From: Bacteroidota bacterium
Lineage (GTDB): Bacteria > Bacteroidota > Bacteroidia > Bacteroidales > Paludibacteraceae
NCBI GenBank assembly: GCA_022708505.1
Contig: JAKIYP010000019.1
Coordinates: 1 to 34,963, forward strand
Direction: 5' to 3'
DNA length: 34,963 bases
The notes under the pieces were generated by a model, which was given only the letters and a program-made list of their open reading frames with translations, had not been told where the DNA came from and searched no databases. The translations under genes were made by a program, and so were the position numbers. Below, piece after piece: positions 1,091-23,221 of this stretch (its first letter is position 1; every line of letters starts with the position of its first letter).

Positions 1091-1861
1091 CTATTTTTTT
1101 AGATTATCCAACAAAACTTCTACGGCAGTGCCAATTTGATGCTGTTCGCCGAGGGTTTTGATGAAAGCCGAACCTATAATTGCTCCTGAGGCATGTTGAT
1201 TGACCATTTCGAGGGTTGCTTTATTAGAAACCCCAAAACCAATCAACCTTGGATTTTTCAATCCCATGGCATTGATGCGATTGAAATAGGCAATGCGACT
1301 GTCGAACGATTGTTGAGTGCCGGTCACGGCTGCCGAAGAAACCATGTAGATAAATCCGTTTGTATGTTCATCGATTTCACGGATTCTCTCCTCTGATGTC
1401 TCGGGCGTAATCAGGAAGATGAATTTCAGATCATACTTATCAGCTATGGCCTTATACTCATGCAGATAATCCGACATAGGGAGATCTGGTATAATCATAC
1501 CATCCACACCAACCCGACTGCATTCCCGGCAAAAATTCTCAAACCCGAATTGCATCACGGGATTGAGATAACCCATCATCACCAATGGAATTTGGATTTC
1601 CTGACGTATATCGGTCAACTGACTAAACAACTTGCGAATGCTCATACCATTTTGCAGGGCTTCATGGCTCGACTGCTGAATAACAGGTCCGTCGGCCATC
1701 GGATCGGAGAACGGAATCCCTATTTCGACCAAATCAACACCATTTGCCTGTAATGCTTTTAGTACCGGCACTGTATCTTCTAATTGTGGGAAACCGGCTG
1801 TAAAATAAACTGAAAGAATATTTTTCTGTTTTTTTTCGAACAATTGATTGATTCTATTCAT
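1091..1861 (-). CDS. trpA: Tryptophan synthase alpha subunit
   Basis: TrpA cleaves indole-3-glycerol phosphate to indole and glyceraldehyde 3-phosphate, and passes indole through a tunnel to TrpB in the cytoplasmic alpha2-beta2 complex. The 256-residue length is normal for this TIM barrel. The signature EIGIPFSDPMADGPVIQ is present, with the catalytic acids at E46 and D57, matching E49 and D60 of the enteric enzyme. The phosphate-binding end reads GFGVSN followed later by GAIIGSAFIK. The start codon overlaps the trpF stop as ATGA (1858-1861), which implies translational coupling. It is the last biosynthetic gene of the operon, and no terminator separates it from the channel fragment downstream. 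Confidence 0.98.
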   Translation of the reverse strand: MNRINQLFEKKQKNILSVYFTAGFPQLEDTVPVLKALQANGVDLVEIGIPFSDPMADGPVIQQSSHEALQNGMSIRKLFSQLTDIRQEIQIPLVMMGYLNPVMQFGFENFCRECSRVGVDGMIIPDLPMSDYLHEYKAIADKYDLKFIFLITPETSEERIREIDEHTNGFIYMVSSAAVTGTQQSFDSRIAYFNRINAMGLKNPRLIGFGVSNKATLEMVNQHASGAIIGSAFIKTLGEQHQIGTAVEVLLDNLKK

Positions 1862-2487
1862 AACTCGTTAAGCTGTTTGATAAATTGTTGTAATAATTCA
1901 TAATCTTTGATTGCCGGAGCAGTTTCGAATCTGCTGTTTAAATCAACTCCCCTGAAATATGGATGATTAATCTTTTGTATCTCGCAGGCATCATCCGGAC
2001 CAATTCCCCCACTGAGGAAAAAAGGGGTATCTCCATGATAAGCATCAAGTAAACTCCAGTCAAACTTGGAGCCTGATCCCCCATAAGAAGCTGTCTTCGT
2101 ATCAAACAAGAAATAATCGACCTGACGATTATAACGCACTGCATTTTTAAAGTCTTCAGCTGAATGTATCTGAAAAGCTTTCAACACTATTAAACCTCTA
2201 CTTTTCAGGGAACTGCAAAGTTCGGCTGACTCATTTCCATGTAACTGTACTGCCTGCAAATCGTATAATTCCACCTTTTGCATGATATCTTCTTCGGAAG
2301 CATTGACAAAAACCCCGGTTTTTGTCGTGTTCTGACCAAATCTGATATGCTTTAGCGCTTCAGGTGATGCTACATACCTCGGAGATTTGGGATAGAAAAT
2401 GAATCCCATAAAATCAGGAGTAAGTGTCAACACTTCACGTATGTTGTCAGCATCGCGCATGCCACATATTTTAATTAAAACATTCAT
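1858..2487 (-). CDS. trpF: Phosphoribosylanthranilate isomerase
   Basis: TrpF performs the Amadori rearrangement of N-(5-phosphoribosyl)anthranilate to CdRP, the step between TrpD and TrpC. The start at 2487 gives MNVLIKICGMRD, with the conserved KICG containing the catalytic cysteine at the end of the first strand. An upstream in-frame ATG at 2517 would add ten residues unlike the family and would lie inside a heptanucleotide repeat, so it was rejected. The C-terminal phosphate-binding loop FFLSGGIGPDDA is present. The product is 209 residues, normal for a single-domain TrpF. It is a separate gene from trpC, unlike the fused enteric form, and overlaps trpA by 4 bp. Confidence 0.96.
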   Translation of the reverse strand: MNVLIKICGMRDADNIREVLTLTPDFMGFIFYPKSPRYVASPEALKHIRFGQNTTKTGVFVNASEEDIMQKVELYDLQAVQLHGNESAELCSSLKSRGLIVLKAFQIHSAEDFKNAVRYNRQVDYFLFDTKTASYGGSGSKFDWSLLDAYHGDTPFFLSGGIGPDDACEIQKINHPYFRGVDLNSRFETAPAIKDYELLQQFIKQLNEL

Positions 2488-2503
2488 TATTTGAAGGGGT
2501 GAG

Positions 2504-2524
2504 TAGTCAATGGTCAATGGTTAG
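2504..2524. repeat. Three heptanucleotide repeat units at the trpC stop / trpF leader
   Basis: Three 7-bp units, TAGTCAA, TGGTCAA and TGGTTAG, lie head to tail on the plus strand. The trpC stop codon (2514-2516) is inside the array, so the last trpC residues are repeat-encoded. The same two heptamers, TGGTCAA and TGGTTAG, recur in a longer array at 15074-15115. Confidence 0.7.
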
Positions 2525-3308
2525 TTTGTTTTTTTAATTCCTGAACAAAACTGTTTAATGCTTTTGCAGGGTTTAGTTCTTTCATAAAATTCTCGCCCAT
2601 CAGAAAACCCTGATATCCTGTATTTTTAAGCGCATTAACCGTTTCAGGAGAAGAAATACCACTTTCACTGATTTTAACAAATTGATCCGGAATCAATTCT
2701 GCCAGTTCAAACGAAACATCCGTGCTGACTTCAAACGTTTTTAAATTACGGTTGTTCACACCTACCATATCCACAAAATCATTGATATGCACAAGTTCTT
2801 CCCTGTTATGAATTTCGAGTAACACTTCCAGCGACAGCGCTTTTGCCTGCTGGGCAAGCTCGAGCGTATCATCTACTGTTAACGCCGCTGCAACCAGTAA
2901 AATCACATCAGCTCCCATCGCTTTTGCTTCAAATAACTGAAAAACATCGATGATAAAATCCTTACGCAGGATGGGACAATGCACATGCGGACGGGCTGCT
3001 GTCAGGTCTTCGGGTACGCCGCCGAAATACTTACTGTCGGTCAAAACAGAAATGCCGGCTGCCCCTGCTTCATCATATCCCGAAGTAATCTCCACCACGT
3101 CCGCCTCTTCATGTATCCAGCCTTTCGAAGGTGATTTTCTTTTAAACTCAGCTATAATGCCTGAAGATGATGCAATCAACCTGTCTTTCAGAGAAATACA
3201 TTTTCTACTGAAATAGGGTGCAGTTCGTAAATCATCAATCGTTATCAATTTTTTACGATTTGCGACTTCTGTTTTTTTATCAGCAATTATCTTATCTAAT
3301 ATTGTCAT
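2514..3308 (-). CDS. trpC: Indole-3-glycerol-phosphate synthase
   Basis: TrpC closes the indole ring, converting CdRP to indole-3-glycerol phosphate with loss of CO2 and water. The 264-residue TIM barrel carries the family motifs IAEFKRKSPSKGWI (residues 52-65), ILRKDFIID with the catalytic lysine near 116, and EVLLEIHN with a catalytic glutamate near 165. The C-terminal phosphate site SESGIS is present. An AGGAGG sequence lies only 1-2 nt before the ATG, too close to be an ordinary Shine-Dalgarno; the start is supported by the family N-terminus ILDKIIA. The last codons and stop lie in a heptanucleotide repeat. A palindromic repeat fills the gap to trpD. Confidence 0.97.
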   Translation of the reverse strand: MTILDKIIADKKTEVANRKKLITIDDLRTAPYFSRKCISLKDRLIASSSGIIAEFKRKSPSKGWIHEEADVVEITSGYDEAGAAGISVLTDSKYFGGVPEDLTAARPHVHCPILRKDFIIDVFQLFEAKAMGADVILLVAAALTVDDTLELAQQAKALSLEVLLEIHNREELVHINDFVDMVGVNNRNLKTFEVSTDVSFELAELIPDQFVKISESGISSPETVNALKNTGYQGFLMGENFMKELNPAKALNSFVQELKKQTNH

Positions 3309-3331
3309 GCCTCCTTAATTATACATTATTT

Positions 3332-3354
3332 GGGCGCAAGCGTTGCGCCCCTAC
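3332..3354 (-). repeat. REP-like palindrome with GTAG head, trpD-trpC gap
   Basis: On the operon sense strand a GTAG tetranucleotide (3351-3354) directly abuts a palindrome with perfect 8-bp arms, GGGCGCAA and TTGCGCCC (3332-3350). The layout of tetranucleotide head plus GC-rich hairpin is that of REP elements processed by RAYT (TnpA-REP) enzymes. No T-run follows it on the sense strand, so it does not look like a terminator. It is one of four such elements, one in each long trp gap. Confidence 0.6.
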
Positions 3355-3362
3355 GTTTTCTG

Positions 3363-4358
3363 TTAATTGTATATTTCAATAAATTTCCGAAACGCATTGA
3401 TTGCCGATCCACTTTGCAGCGATTCCATGGCTTCTGTTTTACAATCTTCGATTGATTTAAGCGGACAACGGGTCTGGATTGCCAAAGCGGCATTGATAAT
3501 CACCGCATCTCTTTGTGCAGTTGAAGCTTTATTCTCAAGCACATTCAGGAAAATTGCTGCAGCATCCTGTACAGTTGCACCGCCCCATAAAACCTGTTGT
3601 TCAATCTTATTAAAGCCTAATTCTTCCGGAGTAAAAATAAATTCGCCTGTATTGTTTACTACCTTAGTGGTATCTGTCAGCGATATTTCATCATAACCAT
3701 CCAAGCTGTGTACGATGCTATACTGAGCACCTAAACGTTGATAGATATAGCTATACAACCGCATCATCTTCAGGTTATAAACACCCAAACACTGATATTT
3801 GGGTTGCGCCGGATTGATAAGGGGTCCGAGCACATTGAAGAATGTTCGCACACCCAGATTTTTCCTCACCGGCGCCACATGTTTCATCGCAGGATTGAAA
3901 ATAGGTGCATGCAAATAAGCAAAACCCGAACCATCCAAAGATGTTTTCAAGACTGACTCATCCGTAGTAAATTTTGCACCAAAATATTCGAGTACATTGG
4001 AGGAACCACTCACTGATGTTGCTCCATAGTTGCCGTGCTTGGCGACTTTATAACCGGCGCCTGCCACCACAAAACAAGCAGCAGTTGAGATATTGAAAGT
4101 GTTTTTTCCATCACCTCCTGTCCCTACAATATCCATAATCCCGAAGTCCGACAAATCAACCTTCACAGCCATGGAAAGCAAAGCATCCCTGAACCCGATG
4201 ATTTCATCCAATTCAATGCTACGCATCAGGTACACCGAGATAAAAGCAGCAATCTGCGCCTCGTTGTATAATCCTGCTGCCATATTGGTCATCACCTCTG
4301 TGGCCTCATTCCTCGATAAGGATTGATGATCGAATAATCTGTTTAAAATTTGTTTCAT
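3363..4358 (-). CDS. trpD: Anthranilate phosphoribosyltransferase
   Basis: TrpD transfers phosphoribose from PRPP to anthranilate. The 331-residue protein has the small N-terminal helical domain and then the glycine-rich pyrophosphate loop GTGGDGKNTFNIS (from residue 79). KHGNYGATSVSGSSNVLE (from 107) contributes the anthranilate and PRPP sites, and the Mg-binding acidic pair lies further on (DEISLTD). It is a stand-alone gene, not fused to trpG as in enterics. Gaps on both sides are filled with palindromic repeats, so coupling to neighbours is by co-transcription and not by overlap. Confidence 0.97.
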   Translation of the reverse strand: MKQILNRLFDHQSLSRNEATEVMTNMAAGLYNEAQIAAFISVYLMRSIELDEIIGFRDALLSMAVKVDLSDFGIMDIVGTGGDGKNTFNISTAACFVVAGAGYKVAKHGNYGATSVSGSSNVLEYFGAKFTTDESVLKTSLDGSGFAYLHAPIFNPAMKHVAPVRKNLGVRTFFNVLGPLINPAQPKYQCLGVYNLKMMRLYSYIYQRLGAQYSIVHSLDGYDEISLTDTTKVVNNTGEFIFTPEELGFNKIEQQVLWGGATVQDAAAIFLNVLENKASTAQRDAVIINAALAIQTRCPLKSIEDCKTEAMESLQSGSAINAFRKFIEIYN

Positions 4359-4406
4359 ACTATATTAACACTTTTCAAAACACACAAGTATTTCTAAATA
4401 AGTTTC

Positions 4407-4430
4407 CCCCGGGTTAAAACCCGGGGCAAT
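4407..4430 (-). repeat. REP-like palindrome, trpG-trpD gap
   Basis: Perfect 9-bp arms CCCCGGGTT and AACCCGGGG enclose AA (4407-4426). On the sense strand the tetranucleotide ATTG (4427-4430) directly precedes the palindrome. It is almost identical to the element at 6618-6641, which has one mismatch in the stem, so the two are copies of one family. Confidence 0.6.
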
Positions 4431-4446
4431 TGAATATTCGCCAAAA

Positions 4447-5013
4447 TTAATATTCCAACCAATTTCTCAACATCTCCTCCCCTTCCGGTGTCAGCACCGA
4501 TTCCGGATGAAATTGTACACCCCGCACATCAAATTGCTTATGCGCCAATGCCATGATCATGCCAGACTCATCGACTGCAGTCACCTTCAAACAATCGGGC
4601 AAAGATCCCTTCTCAACAGCCCAGGAATGATATCGGCCTACGGTCATTTTTCCCGGCAAATTGTTGAACAACACATCATTCTCAAGTACTTGTATTTCAG
4701 ACGTTACACCATGATGCACCTCCGGCAGGTTTATCAGCTTACCTCCAAATGCTTCAGCGATGGCCTGTTCGCCCAAACAAACACCCAATATACTTTTAGA
4801 AGCGGCATAAGTCCTTATCAAATCCAATAGAATCCCCGACTCGGAGGGTACTCCCGGCCCCGGTGACAAGATAATCTTATCAAAACGCGCAATTTCAGCT
4901 AAAGCAATCTGATCATTGCGGTGTACTTCAACATCATTATATCCGAGCTTTTTCAGCGCATGCACGATGTTGTAGGTAAAAGAATCGTAATTGTCGAATA
5001 CTAATATTTTCAT
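4447..5013 (-). CDS. trpG: Anthranilate synthase component II, glutamine amidotransferase
   Basis: TrpG hydrolyses glutamine and delivers ammonia to TrpE for anthranilate synthesis. The start at 5013 gives MKILVFDNYDSFTYN, the canonical N-terminus. The longer frame from 5055 adds 14 unrelated residues. The class I amidotransferase triad is visible: C79 in GVCLGEQA, and H169 and E171 in FHPES. The oxyanion loop reads PGPG. At 188 residues it is a stand-alone subunit. A 161-bp gap containing a REP-like palindrome and heptamer repeats separates it from trpE, an unusually long spacing for two subunits of one enzyme. Confidence 0.97.
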   Translation of the reverse strand: MKILVFDNYDSFTYNIVHALKKLGYNDVEVHRNDQIALAEIARFDKIILSPGPGVPSESGILLDLIRTYAASKSILGVCLGEQAIAEAFGGKLINLPEVHHGVTSEIQVLENDVLFNNLPGKMTVGRYHSWAVEKGSLPDCLKVTAVDESGMIMALAHKQFDVRGVQFHPESVLTPEGEEMLRNWLEY

Positions 5014-5064
5014 GTTTTTTTTAAAATCTAATGTCAAACGACTAATCTTATGCATCGATAACCC

Positions 5065-5088
5065 CCCGCCAGCTAACTGGCGGGCTAC
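5065..5088 (-). repeat. REP-like palindrome with GTAG head, trpE-trpG gap
   Basis: Perfect 8-bp arms CCCGCCAG and CTGGCGGG flank a 4-nt loop (5065-5084), with GTAG (5085-5088) directly in front on the sense strand. A second small hairpin, GCTTCC-TCC-GGAAGC, lies at 5097-5111 in the same gap. The layout matches the element in the trpD-trpC gap although the stem sequence differs. Confidence 0.6.
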
Positions 5089-5161
5089 AAAAATTTGCTT
5101 CCTCCGGAAGCCACTGTACCGTTATTCGTTATAAGCTAAGCTACTCCTTTCCGTTCTCCGT

Positions 5162-5189
5162 CATTCACTATTCGCTATTCGCTATTCGC
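5162..5189. repeat. Heptanucleotide repeat TATTCGC at the trpE stop
   Basis: Three perfect TATTCGC units (5169-5189) are preceded by a degenerate unit CATTCAC (5162-5168). Read on the minus strand they give GCGAATA units. These encode the trpE C-terminus ANSE and its TAG stop (5175-5177). The same heptamer recurs at the trpB stop. Confidence 0.75.
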
Positions 5190-6581
5190 TAACTGAATCG
5201 CCCGCTTCAACGCCGCCAACTTATTATTTACTTCCTGCAATTCACTTTCTTCATCAGATTTCGCTACCACACCTGCTCCGGCCTGATAATACAGGGTATT
5301 TTGTTTGCTTACAAAGGAACGGATGGTGATGGCCTGGTTGAAACTGCCATCGAAACCAATATAACCCAAACAACCTCCGTAGGGTCCCCGGTCATGCGGT
5401 TCAATCTCATCAATCAGCTGCATTGCCCTGATTTTTGGTGCGCCCGACAATGTTCCGGCCGGAAATGTATCGGCAAAAAGCTTGATGACTTTAGTCTCAG
5501 GTCTGAGTTTTCCGCTGACACTTGAGACCAGATGCAACACATGCGAATAATATTGCACTTCCCTGAAAACTTCCACTTCCACATTTTCAGTATTGCGACT
5601 CAGGTCGTTGCGCGCCAAATCAACCAACATCACATGTTCGGCATTTTCTTTTTTATCCTTGCTTAACTTTTCTGCCAGCTCCAGGTCTTTTTCATCATCA
5701 CCGGTGCGACGGAAAGTCCCGGCTATAGGTTTAATAAATGCTTTCTGTTTTTTTCCATCCACCACTAAATGTGCCTCCGGCGATGAGCCGAAAATCCGGA
5801 AATCTCCGAAATTAAAATAAAACAAGTAGGGAGAAGGATTGACGGAGCGAAGTGTGCGGTACAACATAAAATCATCTCCCCTGAACTGCTGATAAAACCT
5901 TCTTGAAAGCACAATCTGAAAAACATTACCCTTGAAACATTCTTCTTTGCCACGTGCAACCATTTTTCTAAAATCATCATCAGAAATATCGCATCTCTCC
6001 TCACCTACCGGTTGAAAATCGAATGTGGCAATGTTATTATTCAACAGCACTTTCTCAATCACATCAATTTCAGATTTCTCTGCTTCCTGCAGGTTCTCAA
6101 TGATGGTCAACTCATTATTAAAATGATTAATCGCGATAATGTACTTAAACAGCACATAATGCAAACCCGGCATCGAACCCGGGACCGTTTCACGCGCATG
6201 CAGTTTGACATCTTCAAAATACTGTACCGACTCGTAAGAGGTATATCCCAGCAAACCATTAATCAGTCCTTTTTCTGTTGGCTGATTAATCAATTCAAAT
6301 GATTTGAGAAAAACATCAAAACGATCCGCCACCGTCATTTTATCCGCAACTTTCGTTTCAATTTGCTTTCCATCCGGATATTCTTCTTTGATCAGAAATC
6401 GGTTCACCGAAATACCACCCACGGGTGCAAAACCTATATACGAAAAACTGTTTTCGATCCCGTGATAATCAGAGCTCTCCAGCAGCACCGAGTTGGTATA
6501 CAAATCCCGTATTTTCAGATATATACCCACAGGTGTCTGCATATCTGCCAGCATTTTTTTTGTATGTACGTATAATTTCAT
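5175..6581 (-). CDS. trpE: Anthranilate synthase component I
   Basis: TrpE converts chorismate and TrpG-derived ammonia to anthranilate, the committed step. The N-terminal domain has LLESSDYHG (from residue 33), which contains the LLES motif that binds the feedback inhibitor tryptophan in characterised enzymes. Product inhibition is therefore likely retained. The C-terminal chorismate-binding domain shows FQIVLSRRF, GSSPEAHL, the Mg-binding region around EHVMLVDLARND, and TFPAGTLSGAPKIRAMQLIDE. AGAGVVAKSDEESE follows near the end. The 468-residue length is typical. The final residues ANSE and the stop codon lie within a TATTCGC repeat array, so the C-terminus varies with the repeat and not with the enzyme fold. 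Confidence 0.98.
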   Translation of the reverse strand: MKLYVHTKKMLADMQTPVGIYLKIRDLYTNSVLLESSDYHGIENSFSYIGFAPVGGISVNRFLIKEEYPDGKQIETKVADKMTVADRFDVFLKSFELINQPTEKGLINGLLGYTSYESVQYFEDVKLHARETVPGSMPGLHYVLFKYIIAINHFNNELTIIENLQEAEKSEIDVIEKVLLNNNIATFDFQPVGEERCDISDDDFRKMVARGKEECFKGNVFQIVLSRRFYQQFRGDDFMLYRTLRSVNPSPYLFYFNFGDFRIFGSSPEAHLVVDGKKQKAFIKPIAGTFRRTGDDEKDLELAEKLSKDKKENAEHVMLVDLARNDLSRNTENVEVEVFREVQYYSHVLHLVSSVSGKLRPETKVIKLFADTFPAGTLSGAPKIRAMQLIDEIEPHDRGPYGGCLGYIGFDGSFNQAITIRSFVSKQNTLYYQAGAGVVAKSDEESELQEVNNKLAALKRAIQLANSE

Positions 6582-6617
6582 ATAAAATATTTTTTCTTCA
6601 GATTGAACGCAATTATC

Positions 6618-6641
6618 CCCCGGATTAAAACCCGGGGCTAT
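6618..6641 (-). repeat. REP-like palindrome with ATAG head, trpB-trpE gap
   Basis: The arms CCCCGGATT and AACCCGGGG (6618-6637) pair with one mismatch around AA. On the sense strand ATAG (6638-6641) directly precedes the palindrome. It is a near copy of the element at 4407-4430. The heptamer array of the trpB stop follows within 5 bp. Confidence 0.6.
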
Positions 6642-6644
6642 AGA

Positions 6645-7832
6645 TTATTCGTTATTCGCTATTCGCTTAACATACGTTTCCATATCCTTATCACCCCTGC
6701 CTGAAACCGTCAATACAACAACATCATCGGGTTTAAAGTTTGGCTGCTCCTTTTTCAGCACACCCAGCGCATGAGCCGATTCAATGGCCGGAATGATTCC
6801 TTCCATTTTCGTAAGTTCAAATGCAGCCACAAGGGCCTCATCATCGTTAATGGCATGAACTTTTGTTCGTCCAATTTGCGCAAAATGAGCATGTGCAGGT
6901 CCAACTCCCGGATAGTCCAGTCCGGCCGAAATAGAATAAGGCTCAATAATCTGCCCATCCTCATCCTGCATCAGCAACGTTCTGAAACCGTGGATTATTC
7001 CTATGGTTCCAACATGTATAGTAGCAGCAGTTTCTCCCGATTCAATACCCAAACCACCTGCTTCCGCCGAAATAATCTTCACCCGTTCATCATTCAGATA
7101 ATGAAAATATGTACCCATAGCATTGCTGCCACCGCCCACACAAGCAATCAGGTAATCCGGATAATTCCGGTTTATTTGTTCCTGTAATTGTGACTTAATT
7201 TCTTCTGATATAACCGACTGAAAATAGGCCACCATATCCGGATAAGGATGCGGTCCGACCGTGGAACCAATGATGTAAAACGAATCGGGATTAGAGCACC
7301 AGTAACGAATAGCTTCATTTGTAGCATCCTTCAGGGTCATATTGCCACTGGTCACCGGCTCGACTTTGGCTCCCAGCATGTTCATTTTCTGCACATTCAG
7401 GAACTGTCTGTCCACATCCGTTTTACCCATAAACACGATACATTCCAAGCCCATGAGGGCACAGGCAGTGGCAGTAGCCACACCATGTTGTCCGGCGCCG
7501 GTTTCAGCAATAATTCGTGTTTTCCCCATGCGTTTGGCCAACAATATCTGACCCAGTGCATTGTTGATTTTATGCGACCCGGTGTGATTCAGGTCTTCTC
7601 TTTTCAGGTAGATGTTGGTTCCGTATAAAGCCGACAGCCTTTTAGCATGATACAATGGAGAAGGTCTCCCTGCATAGTGTTTCAGCAAATCATAATATTC
7701 AGCTTTAAAAGCCGGATCAGCTTTTGCTTCATCGAAAGCAGCTTTTAAACGTTCAACTGAGCCATGTAGAATTTCAGGGATGTAAGCTCCTCCGAATGTC
7801 CCGTAATATCCTTTATTATCCGGTTGATTCAT
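6645..7832 (-). CDS. trpB: Tryptophan synthase beta subunit
   Basis: TrpB is the PLP enzyme that condenses indole with serine to give tryptophan. The 395-residue protein has the PLP lysine K88 in NHTGSHKINN. AETGAGQHGVA follows, and the phosphate-binding CVGGGSNAMG lies near residue 232. It belongs to the ordinary TrpB1 type that pairs with TrpA. It is the first structural gene after the attenuator, which is usual in this phylum, while trpA is at the far end of the operon. The last residues (RIANNE) and the stop are encoded by a heptanucleotide repeat. Confidence 0.98.
   Translation of the reverse strand: MNQPDNKGYYGTFGGAYIPEILHGSVERLKAAFDEAKADPAFKAEYYDLLKHYAGRPSPLYHAKRLSALYGTNIYLKREDLNHTGSHKINNALGQILLAKRMGKTRIIAETGAGQHGVATATACALMGLECIVFMGKTDVDRQFLNVQKMNMLGAKVEPVTSGNMTLKDATNEAIRYWCSNPDSFYIIGSTVGPHPYPDMVAYFQSVISEEIKSQLQEQINRNYPDYLIACVGGGSNAMGTYFHYLNDERVKIISAEAGGLGIESGETAATIHVGTIGIIHGFRTLLMQDEDGQIIEPYSISAGLDYPGVGPAHAHFAQIGRTKVHAINDDEALVAAFELTKMEGIIPAIESAHALGVLKKEQPNFKPDDVVVLTVSGRGDKDMETYVKRIANNE
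6646..6666. repeat. Heptanucleotide repeat TATTCG(T/C) at the trpB stop
   Basis: Three head-to-tail units, TATTCGT, TATTCGC and TATTCGC, cover the last trpB codons and overlap its TAA stop (6645-6647). The unit is the same as in the array at the end of trpE 1.5 kb away. Confidence 0.75.
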
Positions 7833-7903
7833 TTTATATTGAATTTAGAAATGATTTTTATCTTTTGCGCACCCATCCGGGTTATCATTATTATTTAAAA
7901 CAA

Positions 7904-7936
7904 AAAAGGCTTATCGTGAGTTCCGACAAGCCTTTT
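7904..7936 (-). terminator. trp attenuator terminator hairpin
   Basis: On the minus strand the RNA folds into a 13-bp stem (arms 7924-7936 and 7904-7916, one G-U pair) with a 7-nt loop. The run TTTTTTGTTTT follows. It lies between the Trp-rich leader peptide and trpB, so it must be bypassed for operon expression. Its loop plus three stem bases (7914-7921) are exactly complementary to 7973-7980 at the leader stop codon, giving a competing anti-terminator pairing. Confidence 0.85.
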
Positions 7937-7972
7937 CAAATATAATTCATTTGATAAATACATGTTAATAAC

Positions 7973-7980
7973 ACTCACGA
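7973..7980 (-). promoter_or_regulatory. Anti-terminator strand on the trp leader stop codon
   Basis: The RNA segment UCGUGAGU from 7973-7980 contains the leader UGA stop (7975-7977). It is perfectly complementary to ACUCACGA from 7914-7921 in the terminator loop and stem. A ribosome stalled on the Trp codons (7999-8007) would leave it exposed. A ribosome terminating at the UGA would cover it. The pairing is read from the sequence; the switching behaviour is inferred. Confidence 0.65.
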
Positions 7981-8040
7981 ACCGAAATTCTGCAAGCGCC
8001 ACCACCAAGCTGTATTTATTAAATTCTGTTTCATTTTCAT
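7975..8040 (-). CDS. trpL: Tryptophan operon leader peptide (21 residues, three consecutive Trp)
   Basis: The frame reads MKMKQNLINTAWWWRLQNFGS and stops with TGA. Three consecutive TGG codons occupy 7999-8007. Tryptophan is the rarest common residue, so WWW in a 21-codon frame placed between a good promoter and a terminator ahead of trpB is strong evidence for a ribosome-stalling attenuator peptide. The start follows the predicted transcription start by only about 7-10 nt. A second in-frame ATG two codons in would give 19 residues. There is no Shine-Dalgarno, as usual in this phylum. The peptide has no expected function after synthesis; translation itself is the sensor of charged tRNA-Trp. 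Confidence 0.88.
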   Translation of the reverse strand: MKMKQNLINTAWWWRLQNFGS

Positions 8041-8053
8041 ATTAATTTGACGA

Positions 8054-8085
8054 CAAAGATATGAATGTAATTTTATATATGCAAA
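8054..8085 (-). promoter_or_regulatory. trp operon promoter
   Basis: On the minus strand a TTTG -33 box (8082-8085) and a TATCTTTG -7 box (8054-8061) are separated by exactly 20 nt. This matches the Bacteroidota primary-sigma consensus TTTG-N19/21-TAnnTTTG. Transcription should start near 8047-8050, just ahead of the leader peptide. The promoter lies in the gap immediately after infB. No terminator is seen after infB, so some read-through from the rimP-nusA-infB transcript is possible. Confidence 0.85.
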
Positions 8086-8103
8086 TCTAATTACAATTTT
8101 TTA

Positions 8104-11055
8104 TCACAAAGTCTTTTTAACTTCGGTTTCTTCAAAACTTTCAATCATGTCACCAACGCGGATGTCGTTGTAATTTTTGATATTCAAACCACATTCGTAA
8201 TTGGTTCCGACTTCTTTCACATCTTCTTTGAAACGTTTCAGGGATTCCAGTTCGCCGGTATAAATTACAATGCCGTCGCGGATAATGTGCACTTTGTTCG
8301 TTCTCTTAATTTTACCTTCGCGAACGAGACAACCTGCAACCGTACCAACCTTTGTAATCTTGAATACTTCACGAACCTCAACTGTGGCTGTAACCTCTTC
8401 CTTGATTTCAGGAGAAAGCATACCTTCCATTGCCGATTTAATTTCTTCAATTGCATCGTAGATGATAGAATACAAGCGCACGTCGATTTCCTCTTTTTCA
8501 GCCATCTTACGGGCAGAAGCTGTCGGACGAACCTGGAAGCCGCAAATAATTGCATTGGATGCAGCTGCCAGCAAAATATCAGAATCTGAAATCGCCCCAA
8601 CAGCCTTATGAATGACATTTATCTGAATATTTTCTGTTGAAAGTTTGAGTAAGGAGTCTGCAAGCGCTTCCACAGAACCATCCACATCCCCTTTTACAAT
8701 GATATTCAGCTCTTTGAAATCTCCTAAAGCGATACGACGACCCAATTCGTCCAGGGTAAAGTGTTTCTTGGTGCGCAAACTTTGCTCACGTTGCAGCTGT
8801 TCACGTTTATTGGCAATTTCACGTGCTTCCTGTTCGGTTGCCATCACATTGAAATTGTCGCCGGCCTGTGGGGCCCCATTCAAACCAAGAATCAACACCG
8901 GTTCAGCAGGTTTTGCCTCCTGAATACGTTGATTTCTTTCATTAAACATGGCTTTCACCCTGCCGTGATAAATTCCGGCCAACACCACATCTCCCATTTT
9001 CAGGGTACCATTTTCAACCAATATGGTTGAAATATAACCCCGACCTTTATCAAGCGATGATTCAATCACTGAACCTACAGCTCTTTTATTCGGATTGGCT
9101 TTCAGTTCAAGCATTTCAGCTTCAAGCAATACTTTTTCAAGCAGTTCTGCTATACCCATACCCTGTTTGGCTGATATATCCTGCGATTGGTATTTACCCC
9201 CCCAGTCTTCAACCAAATAATTCATGTTAGCAAGCGTTTCCTTGATTTTTTCAGGATTTGCTCCCGGCTTATCAACCTTGTTGATGGCAAAAATCATCGG
9301 TACTCCCGCAGCAGATGCGTGGTTGATCGCTTCAATCGTCTGGGGCATCACATTATCGTCAGCAGCCACGATGATAATCGCGATATCTGTCACTTTTGCA
9401 CCACGGGCACGCATGGCAGTAAATGCTTCGTGACCTGGAGTATCAAGGAAAGTAATACGCTGACCATTATCTAATTTCACATTATAGGCACCGATATGCT
9501 GGGTAATACCACCGGCTTCACCCGCAATCACATTGGTTTTGCGTATATAGTCAAGCAAAGAAGTCTTACCATGGTCAACGTGACCCATCACCGTTACAAT
9601 CGGGGCACGCGGCTGCAGATCAGCTTCATCATCCGGTTCGCTTTCACCAATAGCTTCTACCACATCCGCACTCACAAACTCGGTTGTAAATCCGAACTCA
9701 TCAGCAACAATATTAATTGTTTCTGCATCGAGACGCTGGTTGATCGAAACCATCATACCAATACTCATACAAGTGGCTATTACCTGATTGACAGAAACAT
9801 CCATCATTACAGCCAATTCACTTACCGTCACAAACTCAGTGAGTTTCAACACCTTTTCCTGTTCGCGTTCCTGCATTTCCAACTCACTCTGGCGAGCAGA
9901 AAAGCTATCACGTTTTTCTCTGCGGTACTTAGCGCCCTTACCTTTTTTGTTGGTACCGGCCATCCTTGCTAAAGTCTCTTTGATCTGACGTTGTACTTCT
10001 TCCTCATCAACAACTGTTTTCAAAGGTTTCTTAAACTTATCTTTAGCCAGTTTAGCCTGCATGCCGCCAGCCTGAGCCGGCTTTTTAGAATGGTCAACCG
10101 GGAAATGTTCGATATCCACTTTTTGATTTGAGAAACGTTCCCGTTTCTTTTTCTTTTTGATATCTTCTTCTGTTTCTACATGATTCTTTTTCTTTTCATC
10201 AATCGCATTTTTGGCTTTTTCCTCCCTTTCCTTTTTCTTTTGTTCTTTTGTTTTGGGTTTGGGACGGGTAGTTTGATTCAGTGCATCCAGGTCAATACGA
10301 CCCAACACAACCGGTTTAATTTCAACCACAGGTCTGGCAATGGAGAACACTTCATCTTCATCATCTTTTTCTGATTCGACTTCAGGCTCTTGCTCTTTTT
10401 CTACAACCACTTGTTTTTCTTCTTCCTGCGAATCAACTTCTTTAGAAACAACTGGTTCGATTTGAGGAGTAATTTCAGGTTGCTCCGAAACTTCCACTTC
10501 CTGATTGATTTCCGGTATAACTTCTACTGAGTGTTCTTCAGCAACTGCTTTCTGAACAATTTCAACTGGTTCTTGAACCAGCTCATTAACAACAGGAATC
10601 TCAACTTCTTCTTTTTCAACCACTTTAAGTTCCTCAACAGGTTCTGTTGTTTTTACCGGTTTTTGCACAACCGGTTCGGGTTTTATCGGTTCAGGCTTTT
10701 TGTTGATAGCATCCAAATCAATTTTACCAACCTGTTTGATTGAAGGCAACTGATCAACCGGCACCTCAACGGGGATGATATTTTCTGCTTTCTCTGCTGT
10801 TTTCTTAGCGCCATAACCTTCCAACGCAACGGTTGATGCCTTTTCTTTCTGGTGGCGCTCCTGACTGATGCGTTCCGACTCCATTTTCAGAGCCATGTCT
10901 TTATTGAACTCTTTTACCAATAACAAGTGAAGTTCATCCGACAATTTCAGGTTGGGATCAACGGCAATCTTGTTTCCTTTTTTGGCTAAAAAGTCAACTG
11001 CTGTGGTTATACCGATATTTAATTCTTTACAAGCTTTACTTAATCTGATGGGCAT
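8104..11055 (-). CDS. infB: Translation initiation factor IF-2
   Basis: IF-2 is the GTPase that brings fMet-tRNA to the 30S subunit and promotes subunit joining. The 983-residue protein starts with a short IF2-N helical domain ([15 protein letters not shown]). A long charged, low-complexity linker rich in E, K, V and P follows (about 90-400), then a second IF2-N domain (about 405-455). The G domain has GHVDHGKT (491-498), GGIT (515-518), DTPGH (538-542) and NKVD (592-595). The beta-barrel and fMet-tRNA-binding domains complete it. The linker holds two copies of a short motif, [10 protein letters not shown] (109-118) and [10 protein letters not shown] (251-260). It is the last gene of rimP-nusA-infB, a conserved order. 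Confidence 0.98.
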
Positions 11056-15073: not shown

Positions 15074-15115
15074 TGGTCAATGGTTAGTGGTTAGTGGTTA
15101 GTGGTTAGTGGTTAG
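15074..15115. repeat. Heptanucleotide repeat array TGGTTAG
   Basis: One TGGTCAA unit is followed by five perfect TGGTTAG units, starting directly after the TAG stop of the HU-like/SPOR gene. Because 7 is not a multiple of 3 and the unit contains TAG (TAA on the other strand), three units give stops in all six frames. The same units occur at the trpC stop. The rest of this 169-bp gap (15116-15242) is AT-rich and holds the rpsP promoter. Confidence 0.85.
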
Positions 15116-15182
15116 TAAGTTTAGGGATTTATTGAAATCTTTCTTTTTTAATTCTAAATTTTTAATTCTAAATTCTTTTTCC

Positions 15183-15190
15183 TATCTTTG
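15183..15190 (+). promoter_or_regulatory. rpsP -7 box
   Basis: TATCTTTG is a perfect TAnnTTTG match, with TTTT (15160-15163) in place of TTTG at a 19-nt spacing. The predicted start near 15197 gives a leader of about 45 nt. It contains a small GCTTTT/AAAAGC hairpin. Confidence 0.6.
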
Positions 15191-15242
15191 CAGCCGCTTT
15201 TCGAGAAAAAGCAACAGGTATAATCATTTAATAAAGACAAAA

Positions 15243-15806
15243 ATGCCAGTAAAAATCAGATTACAACGTCATGGTCGCAAAGGATATGCTTATTATCATA
15301 TCGTAATTGCCGACAGTCGTGCGCCACGTGATGGCAAATTCATTGAACGAATCGGTTCATACAACCCGAACACCGATCCTGCTACAGTAAACCTGAAGTT
15401 CGACAGAGCTTTGTATTGGATGCAGGTAGGCGCTCAACCTACGGACACAACCCGTAATATCCTTTCTGCTGAAGGGGTACTCATGAAAAAACACTTGTTG
15501 GAAGGTGTAAAAAAAGGTGCTTTCGATGAAGCAGAAGCCGAAAAACGTTTTGCTGCATGGCAAACAAGCAAAGAAAGCAAAGTAAACAAAACAAAAGAAC
15601 AAATTGCTGCTGAGAAAGCTGCAGCTGCTAAAGCCCGTCTTGCCGCTGAGGTAGAGGTAAACAAAGCTAAAGCCGCTGAACTTGCCAAGAAATTAGCTGA
15701 TGCGAAGGCTGCTGAAGCTGAAGCACAAGTAGAAGCTGCACAGGCTGAGGCTCCGGCTGAAGTTGAAGCTCCGATAGAAGAAAAAGAAGCTCCGGCTGCA
15801 GAATAA
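15243..15806 (+). CDS. rpsP: 30S ribosomal protein bS16
   Basis: The bS16 protein is an early-assembly protein of the 30S subunit. The start [20 protein letters not shown] is canonical; an upstream in-frame extension from 15108 covers repeats and the promoter and is rejected. The conserved part ends near residue 85. The remaining 100 residues are rich in Ala, Lys and Glu and are predicted to be helical or disordered, ending in [19 protein letters not shown]. Long charged tails of this kind are usual in Bacteroidota S16, giving 187 residues against about 82 in E. coli. A strong terminator follows, so the gene is monocistronic. Confidence 0.97.
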
Positions 15807-23150: not shown

Positions 23151-23221
23151 AGGTACTTGGCGGATTCGAACCGCCGTAGACGGTTTTGCAGACCGGTGCC
23201 TAACCACTCGGCCAAAGTACC
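23151..23221 (-). tRNA. tRNA-Cys (GCA)
   Basis: The 71-nt minus-strand gene folds as a cloverleaf. The 7-bp acceptor stem is GGTACTT with AAGTACC, and the discriminator base is U, the identity element for cysteine. The D arm contains GAGTGGTTAGGC. The anticodon stem CCGGT/ACCG-type presents loop CTGCAAA with anticodon GCA (23187-23189). The T arm has GGTTCGAATCC. CCA is not encoded. A perfect promoter lies just upstream. Confidence 0.95.

Follow-up and report, generated by a model that had tools for sequence, protein, structure and literature searches.

The window, as the whole 34,963-nucleotide stretch of Bacteroidota DNA analysed here is called (contig JAKIYP010000019.1), carries a trp operon in the order trpB-E-G-D-C-F-A on its minus strand. 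The genes upstream are rimP, nusA and infB, and between infB and the operon a promoter-like site, a short frame with three consecutive Trp codons (WWW), a terminator hairpin and trpB can be read directly in that order (Table 1); infB ends at 8104 and the leader ATG lies 63 nt further on. Elsewhere in the window, a 325-aa frame adjoining trpA (107–1084) matches nothing in NCBIfam and, in Pfam, no more than a mechanosensitive-channel helix below threshold, a 232-aa frame at 15108–15806 carries a ribosomal protein S16 domain and is far longer than that domain, and a tRNA gene lies on the minus strand at 23151–23221.

Table 1 Features of the trp leader and operon, in positions of the window
Feature	Position	Strand	Description
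Promoter-like site	8054–8085	−	TTTG at 8085–8082, 20 nt, TATCTTTG at 8061–8054; direct reading
Leader peptide gene	7975–8040	−	ATG at 8040, TGA at 7977–7975; 21 codons, MKMKQNLINTAWWWRLQNFGS
Outer helix	7954–8019	−	AUAAAUACA (8019–8011) with UGUAUUUAU (7962–7954); within the hairpin of the Rfam model
Sensing codons TGG TGG TGG	7999–8007	−	direct reading
Protector hairpin	7972–7998	−	post-Trp codons CGCUUGC (7998–7992) with GUGAGUG (7978–7972)
Switch element S, UCGUGAG	7974–7980	−	overlaps the leader stop codon
Small pre-terminator hairpin	7936–7954	−	UCAAAU (7954–7949) with AUUUGA (7941–7936)
Intrinsic terminator	7902–7936	−	5′ arm 7936–7924, loop 7923–7917, 3′ arm 7916–7904; 13 pairs
S′, CUCACGA	7914–7920	−	last 4 bases of the loop and first 3 of the terminator 3′ arm; predicted to pair with S as antiterminator
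trp operon, trpB-E-G-D-C-F-A	1091–7832	−	NCBIfam matches
trpB	6645–7832	−	curated NCBIfam cut-off reached; ATG at 7832
trpE	5175–6581	−	best NCBIfam match, below curated cut-off
trpG	4447–5055	−	curated NCBIfam cut-off reached
trpD	3363–4358	−	curated NCBIfam cut-off reached
trpC	2514–3308	−	curated NCBIfam cut-off reached
trpF	1858–2517	−	best NCBIfam match, below curated cut-off
trpA	1091–1861	−	curated NCBIfam cut-off reached

The first-pass annotation had described a 21-codon frame with three Trp codons, followed by a 13-bp terminator hairpin with a T-run and then by trpB, and all of these elements are found in place. In the closest relatives (L032 and L068) the leader start aligns with the second ATG of the frame (8034), which corresponds to a 19-codon peptide, and the U run of the terminator (7907–7902) extends to 7902. 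An ATG-started WWW frame of 10–45 codons occurs only here in the window, both strands considered, and in none of 20,000 dinucleotide shuffles of positions 8103–7833, while a terminator scan of 901 bases returned the 7936–7902 hairpin and one more (8154–8170, plus strand) against a shuffle mean of 0.6. The site at 8085–8054 is a putative promoter by its likeness to the Bacteroidota promoter consensus, and by eye a similar TTG(C)...TATC.TCTTTG arrangement precedes the leaders of many relatives; a scan of 901 bases for sigma-70-type sites, which represent another promoter type, gave two sites, none of them at 8085–8054, with a shuffle mean of 2.6.

Several helices can be drawn within the leader transcript. 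The outer helix consists of nine standard pairs out of nine and reaches a mean pair probability of 0.94–0.99 when folded without a ribosome, and within it the codons following the Trp run pair with the region of the stop codon in the protector hairpin, which has further inner pairs between 7990–7987 and 7982–7979. When the leader is folded with a ribosome placed on its stop codon, the small hairpin that precedes the terminator belongs to the structure of lowest energy, and in several relatives hairpins of different letters are seen by eye at the same place. In the relatives element S (UCGUGAG) is found at the stop codon of the leader, and the complementary element S′ (CUCACGA) in the terminator loop and 3′ arm.

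The leader belongs to the Rfam family RF01692, Bacteroid-trp. The match scores 52.7 bits against a gathering threshold of 49, covers the model at full length (1–131) at 7925–8054 on the minus strand, and is the only one in the genome assembly, which is 75% complete. As is characteristic of the family, it lies in a member of the Bacteroidota, as judged from a TrpB 99.7% identical to that of a Paludibacter MAG (L111), and upstream of trp genes, with the trpB start 92 nt past the end of the match. The window and the family share the phylum, the leader start, the Trp codons, the outer helix and a protector-like inner helix; in contrast, the 131-position model contains the first hairpin only. Its last bases, GGCUUGUC, fall within the 5′ arm of the terminator, and it holds neither the terminator 3′ arm of the window nor the S:S′ antiterminator predicted there. 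The enterobacterial Trp_leader family RF00513 gives 18.7 bits, below its gathering threshold of 41. The trpB motif RF04312, which resembles the window in having two hairpins, the second a terminator, and in standing at times before trpB, differs in that it was proposed as a riboswitch candidate from Firmicutes and Fusobacteria (PMC11109978); with 26 bits against a gathering threshold of 59 this assignment was dropped.

The first-pass annotation had left it open whether the version of this phylum had been described. As a motif it has: Bacteroid-trp was listed in 2010 as a cis-regulatory motif of Bacteroidetes (Weinberg et al., PMC2864571), and in Flavobacterium psychrophilum it is given as conserved before the trp operon and likened to the E. 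coli trp leader (PMC6414381), with strong clues to leader-peptide attenuation ahead of amino-acid operons in the same species (PMC9723704). For Bacteroides thetaiotaomicron, short frames reminiscent of attenuation leaders have been noted in a paper in whose main text neither trp nor tryptophan occurs (PMC7366714), and the term Bacteroid-trp also occurs in PMC4977773. A description of the S:S′ antiterminator pairing was not found in the open-access text searched, and may be contained in the supplement of the 2010 study or in Lopatovskaya et al. 2010 (cited in PMC4833913).

The arrangement is conserved in the genus. Among 33 regions upstream of trpB in genomes of the genus, the leader is present in 31 (28 with WWW and three with WW) and the remaining two are truncated, at 107 and 200 nt, where their contigs end, so that the loss of Trp codons or hairpin beside a retained trpB, which had been named beforehand as evidence against an attenuator, was not encountered in this set; three further genomes of the genus (G003, G006, G030) gave no close TrpB. 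An RF01692 search with stricter filters gave matches in 30 of 60 relatives and missed the leaders of five genomes of the genus (G004, G005, G015, G022, G033), which are seen to have WWW or WW, S and a terminator. In other families of the order the leader is found in six of 15 trpB upstream regions. In six of the nine leaderless ones (L070, L072–L076) the gene is directly preceded by the end of a long open frame, so that trpB is internal there; the other three (L069, L071, L078) have neither a leader nor a long frame ending at trpB. At E ≤ 0.001 and with the stricter filters, RF01692 matched 42 of 395 genomes across the phylum (38 over the cut-off) and 38 of 393 across the order (22 over the cut-off). 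As a separate observation, His-run leader frames (HHH to HHHHHH) stand upstream of hisG in nine of ten loci of other Bacteroidales families (L272–L276, L278, L279, L281, L287); by eye, terminator-like hairpins follow them, and in some a segment close to the stop codon seems able to pair with the terminator. No leader-like His frame was seen at 20 hisG loci of the window's own genus.

Since infB ends only 63 nt before the leader ATG and transcripts reading through it would meet the hairpin, the hairpin could be regarded as the terminator of infB and the short frame as a free-standing small protein gene. This is hardly credible, however: the leader is separated from infB by a promoter-like site, 31 of the 33 genus regions keep both leader and terminator beside trpB, and elsewhere in the taxonomic order the leader is absent where trpB is internal (L070, L072–L076).

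A conserved, structured leader with a terminator would also be expected of a tryptophan riboswitch or a protein-bound leader in which the short frame is incidental, and RF04312, a different family, has been put forward as a riboswitch candidate (PMC11109978). Against this stands the behaviour of the Trp codons. The Trp-free pattern CGTGAG..TGTCG..CTCACGAY, scanned through a collection of species genomes, matched at least 118 stretches, with 80 loci listed, of which 22 are from Bacteroidota by record title (including Candidatus Physcocola); among these listed matches a WW or WWW leader ending at CGTGAG is nonetheless found in 19 of the 22 Bacteroidota loci vs none of the 58 others. In 17 of those 19 loci trpB follows within 280 nt, and the other two hold 150 and 380 nt of downstream sequence. 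The genus set, which was anchored on trpB, likewise has tandem Trp codons in all regions except the two cut ones, the RF04312 score stays below threshold, and the 2010 table has an 'n' for Bacteroid-trp under Switch (PMC2864571), which together make a riboswitch very improbable. A short leader frame with tandem Trp codons is thus a conserved feature of these loci.

Comparative analysis of the pairing was based on 108 leaders that had been found via RF01692 or TrpB, not via the S/S′ pattern. From 153 such loci, with some genomes represented twice, an automatic finder gave leader and terminator in 131, of which 101 were distinct; L076 was removed as a chance WW frame that has no RF01692 match and an internal trpB, and eight leaders that the finder had missed (L067, L088, L101, L106, L107, L255, L258, L261) were added by hand. 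Outside the sample are L253 (terminator cut off), L240 (TTG start), L035 and L038 (contig ends), the leaderless L069–L075 and L078, and L077 and L079, second TrpB copies with no tblastn match. Of these, L240 (G013:C147) is the second RF01692 match in its genome; its WW frame begins with TTG, its two elements read S = GUCGUAAG and S′ = ACCUGCGAC, and the contig ends just past the terminator. Three Trp codons in a row occur in 91 of the 108 leaders and two in 17; TGGTGG was a criterion for picking them and tandem Trp codons therefore prove nothing within the sample. An earlier S:S′ test of 83 unique pairs contained loci picked by the pattern and is therefore excluded as evidence. The alignment of the 108 leaders begins at the Trp codons, reaches as far as the U run and was made without reference to structure; clades share changes, so that its cells are not independent events, and shuffles, slides and permutations served as controls.

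In this alignment the S:S′ helix is paired in 84.5% of 918 cells, and changes on both sides occur at eight of its nine pairs, in 57 cells. Its covariation is 0.202 vs 0.135 (sd 0.006) in shuffles, none of 500 of which reached it, and at most 0.070 when one strand is slid against the other. The unpaired cells lie mostly at the helix ends, with 31 of 108 at the first pair, 29 of 95 at the last but one and 57 of 75 at the last. The terminator itself covaries as well (0.272 vs 0.164 shuffled). Cognate S:S′ duplexes have a mean energy of −10.74 kcal/mol vs −9.24 for permuted partners (0 of 20,000 permutations), and the difference persists with one duplex for each of the 50 distinct S′ (−10.41 vs −8.84, again 0 of 20,000). 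Taken singly, 35 of these 50 do better than with shuffled S (P ≤ 0.05), and the own S′ is unbeaten by any foreign one in just four. The protector duplexes, formed by the post-Trp codons with S, are likewise matched, with a mean of −6.3 vs −5.1 permuted (0 of 20,000) and 40 of 85 beating shuffles singly at P ≤ 0.05. At one base of S both partners can be followed together: read as protector partner (assigned by folding), S and loop, the letters are C-G-C in 52, U-A-U in six and A-U-A in two of the 108 leaders, U-A-A (17), C-G-A (10) and C-G-gap (10) retain the protector pair but not the loop pair, and the remaining 11 have other combinations.

The leader of the window was also folded in its different translational states, with the RNA covered by a stalled ribosome left out. 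With a ribosome on any of the Trp codons and the transcript ending at 7914–7911, when only the first 3–6 bases of the terminator 3′ arm are out, S:S′ has a probability of 0.95–0.98 and the terminator core of 0.0; at an end at 7908 the stalled state is mixed (S:S′ 0.23–0.53), and from 7906 on the terminator prevails in every state (0.93–1.0), and the decision in favour of S:S′ must therefore be kinetic. In the ribosome-free state S is bound in the protector at 0.99, S:S′ is at 0.00 and the terminator forms, as it also does with a ribosome at the stop codon.

Within a Trp-codon attenuator, the contact between S and the loop might alternatively be a pseudoknot on an intact terminator, the antiterminator being another hairpin, such as 7954–7949/7941–7936 lengthened to include the AAAA with which the terminator stem begins. 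That small hairpin does exist in the stop-state fold, and the S′ columns within the 3′ arm are also constrained by the terminator stem, which leaves only the four loop pairs, as set by the window's terminator and with the stem reaching into them in a few rows, as independent evidence. Their covariation is 0.157 vs 0.093 shuffled (0 of 500 shuffles), with slides giving up to 0.100, but their count of pairs with both-sided changes is not special, as 409 of 500 shuffles reach it, and the number of further pair types hardly so (31 of 500). Against the pseudoknot, however, the predicted S:S′ pairing runs into the 3′ arm: among the 50 distinct S′ at least six uninterrupted pairs are found in 40 and at least eight in 21, the latter exceeding the 7-base loop of the window. 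Furthermore, the terminator core is at zero in the stalled state at ends 7914–7911, and pairing of the AAAA would presumably spare the G+C part of the terminator. We therefore regard the pseudoknot as unlikely and S:S′ as the probable antiterminator.

The same switching between S:S′ and terminator is predicted for most relatives. With a ribosome on the second Trp codon S:S′ exceeds 0.5 in 91 of the 108 leaders, and on the first in 87, vs 41 of 540 foldings of the stalled state with the letters of S shuffled. S:S′ already exceeds 0.5 without a ribosome in ten leaders, eight of them from genus g34, and with a ribosome at the stop codon in none of the 108, the latter largely by construction because S then lies under or behind the ribosome. 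An antiterminator and a terminator that exclude each other, and a protector that a stalled ribosome would open, are thus predicted in silico for the window and, over the full three states, for 79 of the 108 leaders, with 29 falling short. In eight leaders (L003, L018, L241, L243, L262, L264, L266, L269) S and S′ are complementary and the terminator wins even when the ribosome is stalled. The S:S′ behaviour is missing from the RF01692 matches L233–L238, L257, L263 and L265, of which L234, L257 and L263 give the terminator as their fold, while L235, which falls short as L236 and L265 do, may be a chance match.

The spacing of the elements is also restricted. GUGAG begins 19–23 nt past the last Trp codon in 104 of the 108 leaders, which is the distance required if a ribosome on the Trp codons is to mask the protector strand but not S. 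The frame in which S is read, on the other hand, varies among the leaders (81/18/9), and the stop codon overlaps GUGAG in the register of the window in 67 and lies elsewhere in 41. The footprint of a ribosome is taken as 15 nt from the A-site codon; in six of the 108 leaders the stop codon follows S at a distance of more than 15 nt, so that a terminating ribosome would not cover S. In L066, L242, L245, L260 and L262 S is located inside the leader frame, 18–35 nt before the stop codon, and the RNA element thus appears, from the sequences, to be kept with the stop codon elsewhere. The sequence and its conservation, the covariation of S:S′ and the terminator, the matched protector pairing and the spacing are what has been observed.

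The comparative evidence thus supports the proposal of the first-pass annotation that a Trp-codon attenuator precedes a trpB-first operon in the Bacteroidota, and we assign a probability of roughly 0.85 to the leader being a ribosome-mediated transcription attenuator of the trp operon, a member of RF01692 in which S switches between two partners. From the covariation and folding we infer how stalling, termination, read-through and the effect of tryptophan would be connected. Without translation, the post-Trp codons would hold S in the protector and the terminator would form. When Trp-tRNA is scarce, the ribosome would stall on WWW and cover the post-Trp codons, and S, thereby freed, would capture CUCACGA, that is, loop bases and the first bases of the 3′ arm, as these leave the polymerase, so that the terminator could not close in time and trpBEGDCFA would be transcribed. 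When tryptophan is plentiful, the ribosome would reach the stop codon and sit on S, and the terminator would form. Such a switch should permit trp transcription only under tryptophan scarcity.

The likeness to the classic enteric attenuator, which had been suggested for the locus, proves to be partial. The E. coli trp leader is known to alternate between pairing of regions 1:2, 2:3 and 3:4, and the window shares with trpL (RF00513) the tandem-Trp leader peptide, the terminator and the use of protector, antiterminator and terminator as alternatives. However, the antiterminator of E. coli takes the 5′ arm of the terminator (CGGGC with GCCCG), whereas in the window, by the same kind of folding, it takes the loop and 3′ arm; the first gene of the operon is also trpE in E. 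coli and trpB here. As a control, folding of E. coli trpL in stalled states at an intermediate length gave the CGGGC:GCCCG antiterminator as the lowest-energy fold and at greater lengths the terminator. The terminator 5′ arm is nevertheless used, as in enteric bacteria, by some RF01692 leaders from other families of the class, where its partner is a strand located at or past the stop codon: in L237 GGCAGCC pairs with GGUUGCC of the 5′ arm, with the same bases in L238, the 5′ arm is likewise used in L233, and in L239, which nevertheless shows the S:S′ behaviour as well, the end of the 5′ arm and the loop are used. We lean, with some reserve, towards regarding Bacteroid-trp as a distinct attenuation layout, in which a strand on the stop codon would capture first the loop and then the 3′ arm, in a toehold-like manner with a head start of four bases, as opposed to the enteric 5′ arm; with the 5′ arm apparently used in lineages such as those of L237 and L238, the phylum would hold both.

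The RNA family and its motif are already known, and the window is an ordinary member of RF01692; what appears to be new, relative to the open-access text searched, is the covariation-supported layout of an antiterminator on loop and 3′ arm, and the Rfam model might be lengthened to take in the whole terminator. For a catalogued family whose mechanism was not found described in that text, this offers a switch model testable at the level of single bases, and trp control in an abundant phylum becomes directly accessible to experiment by matched base swaps. It also suggests that the textbook logic of attenuation may be met by a different strand geometry.
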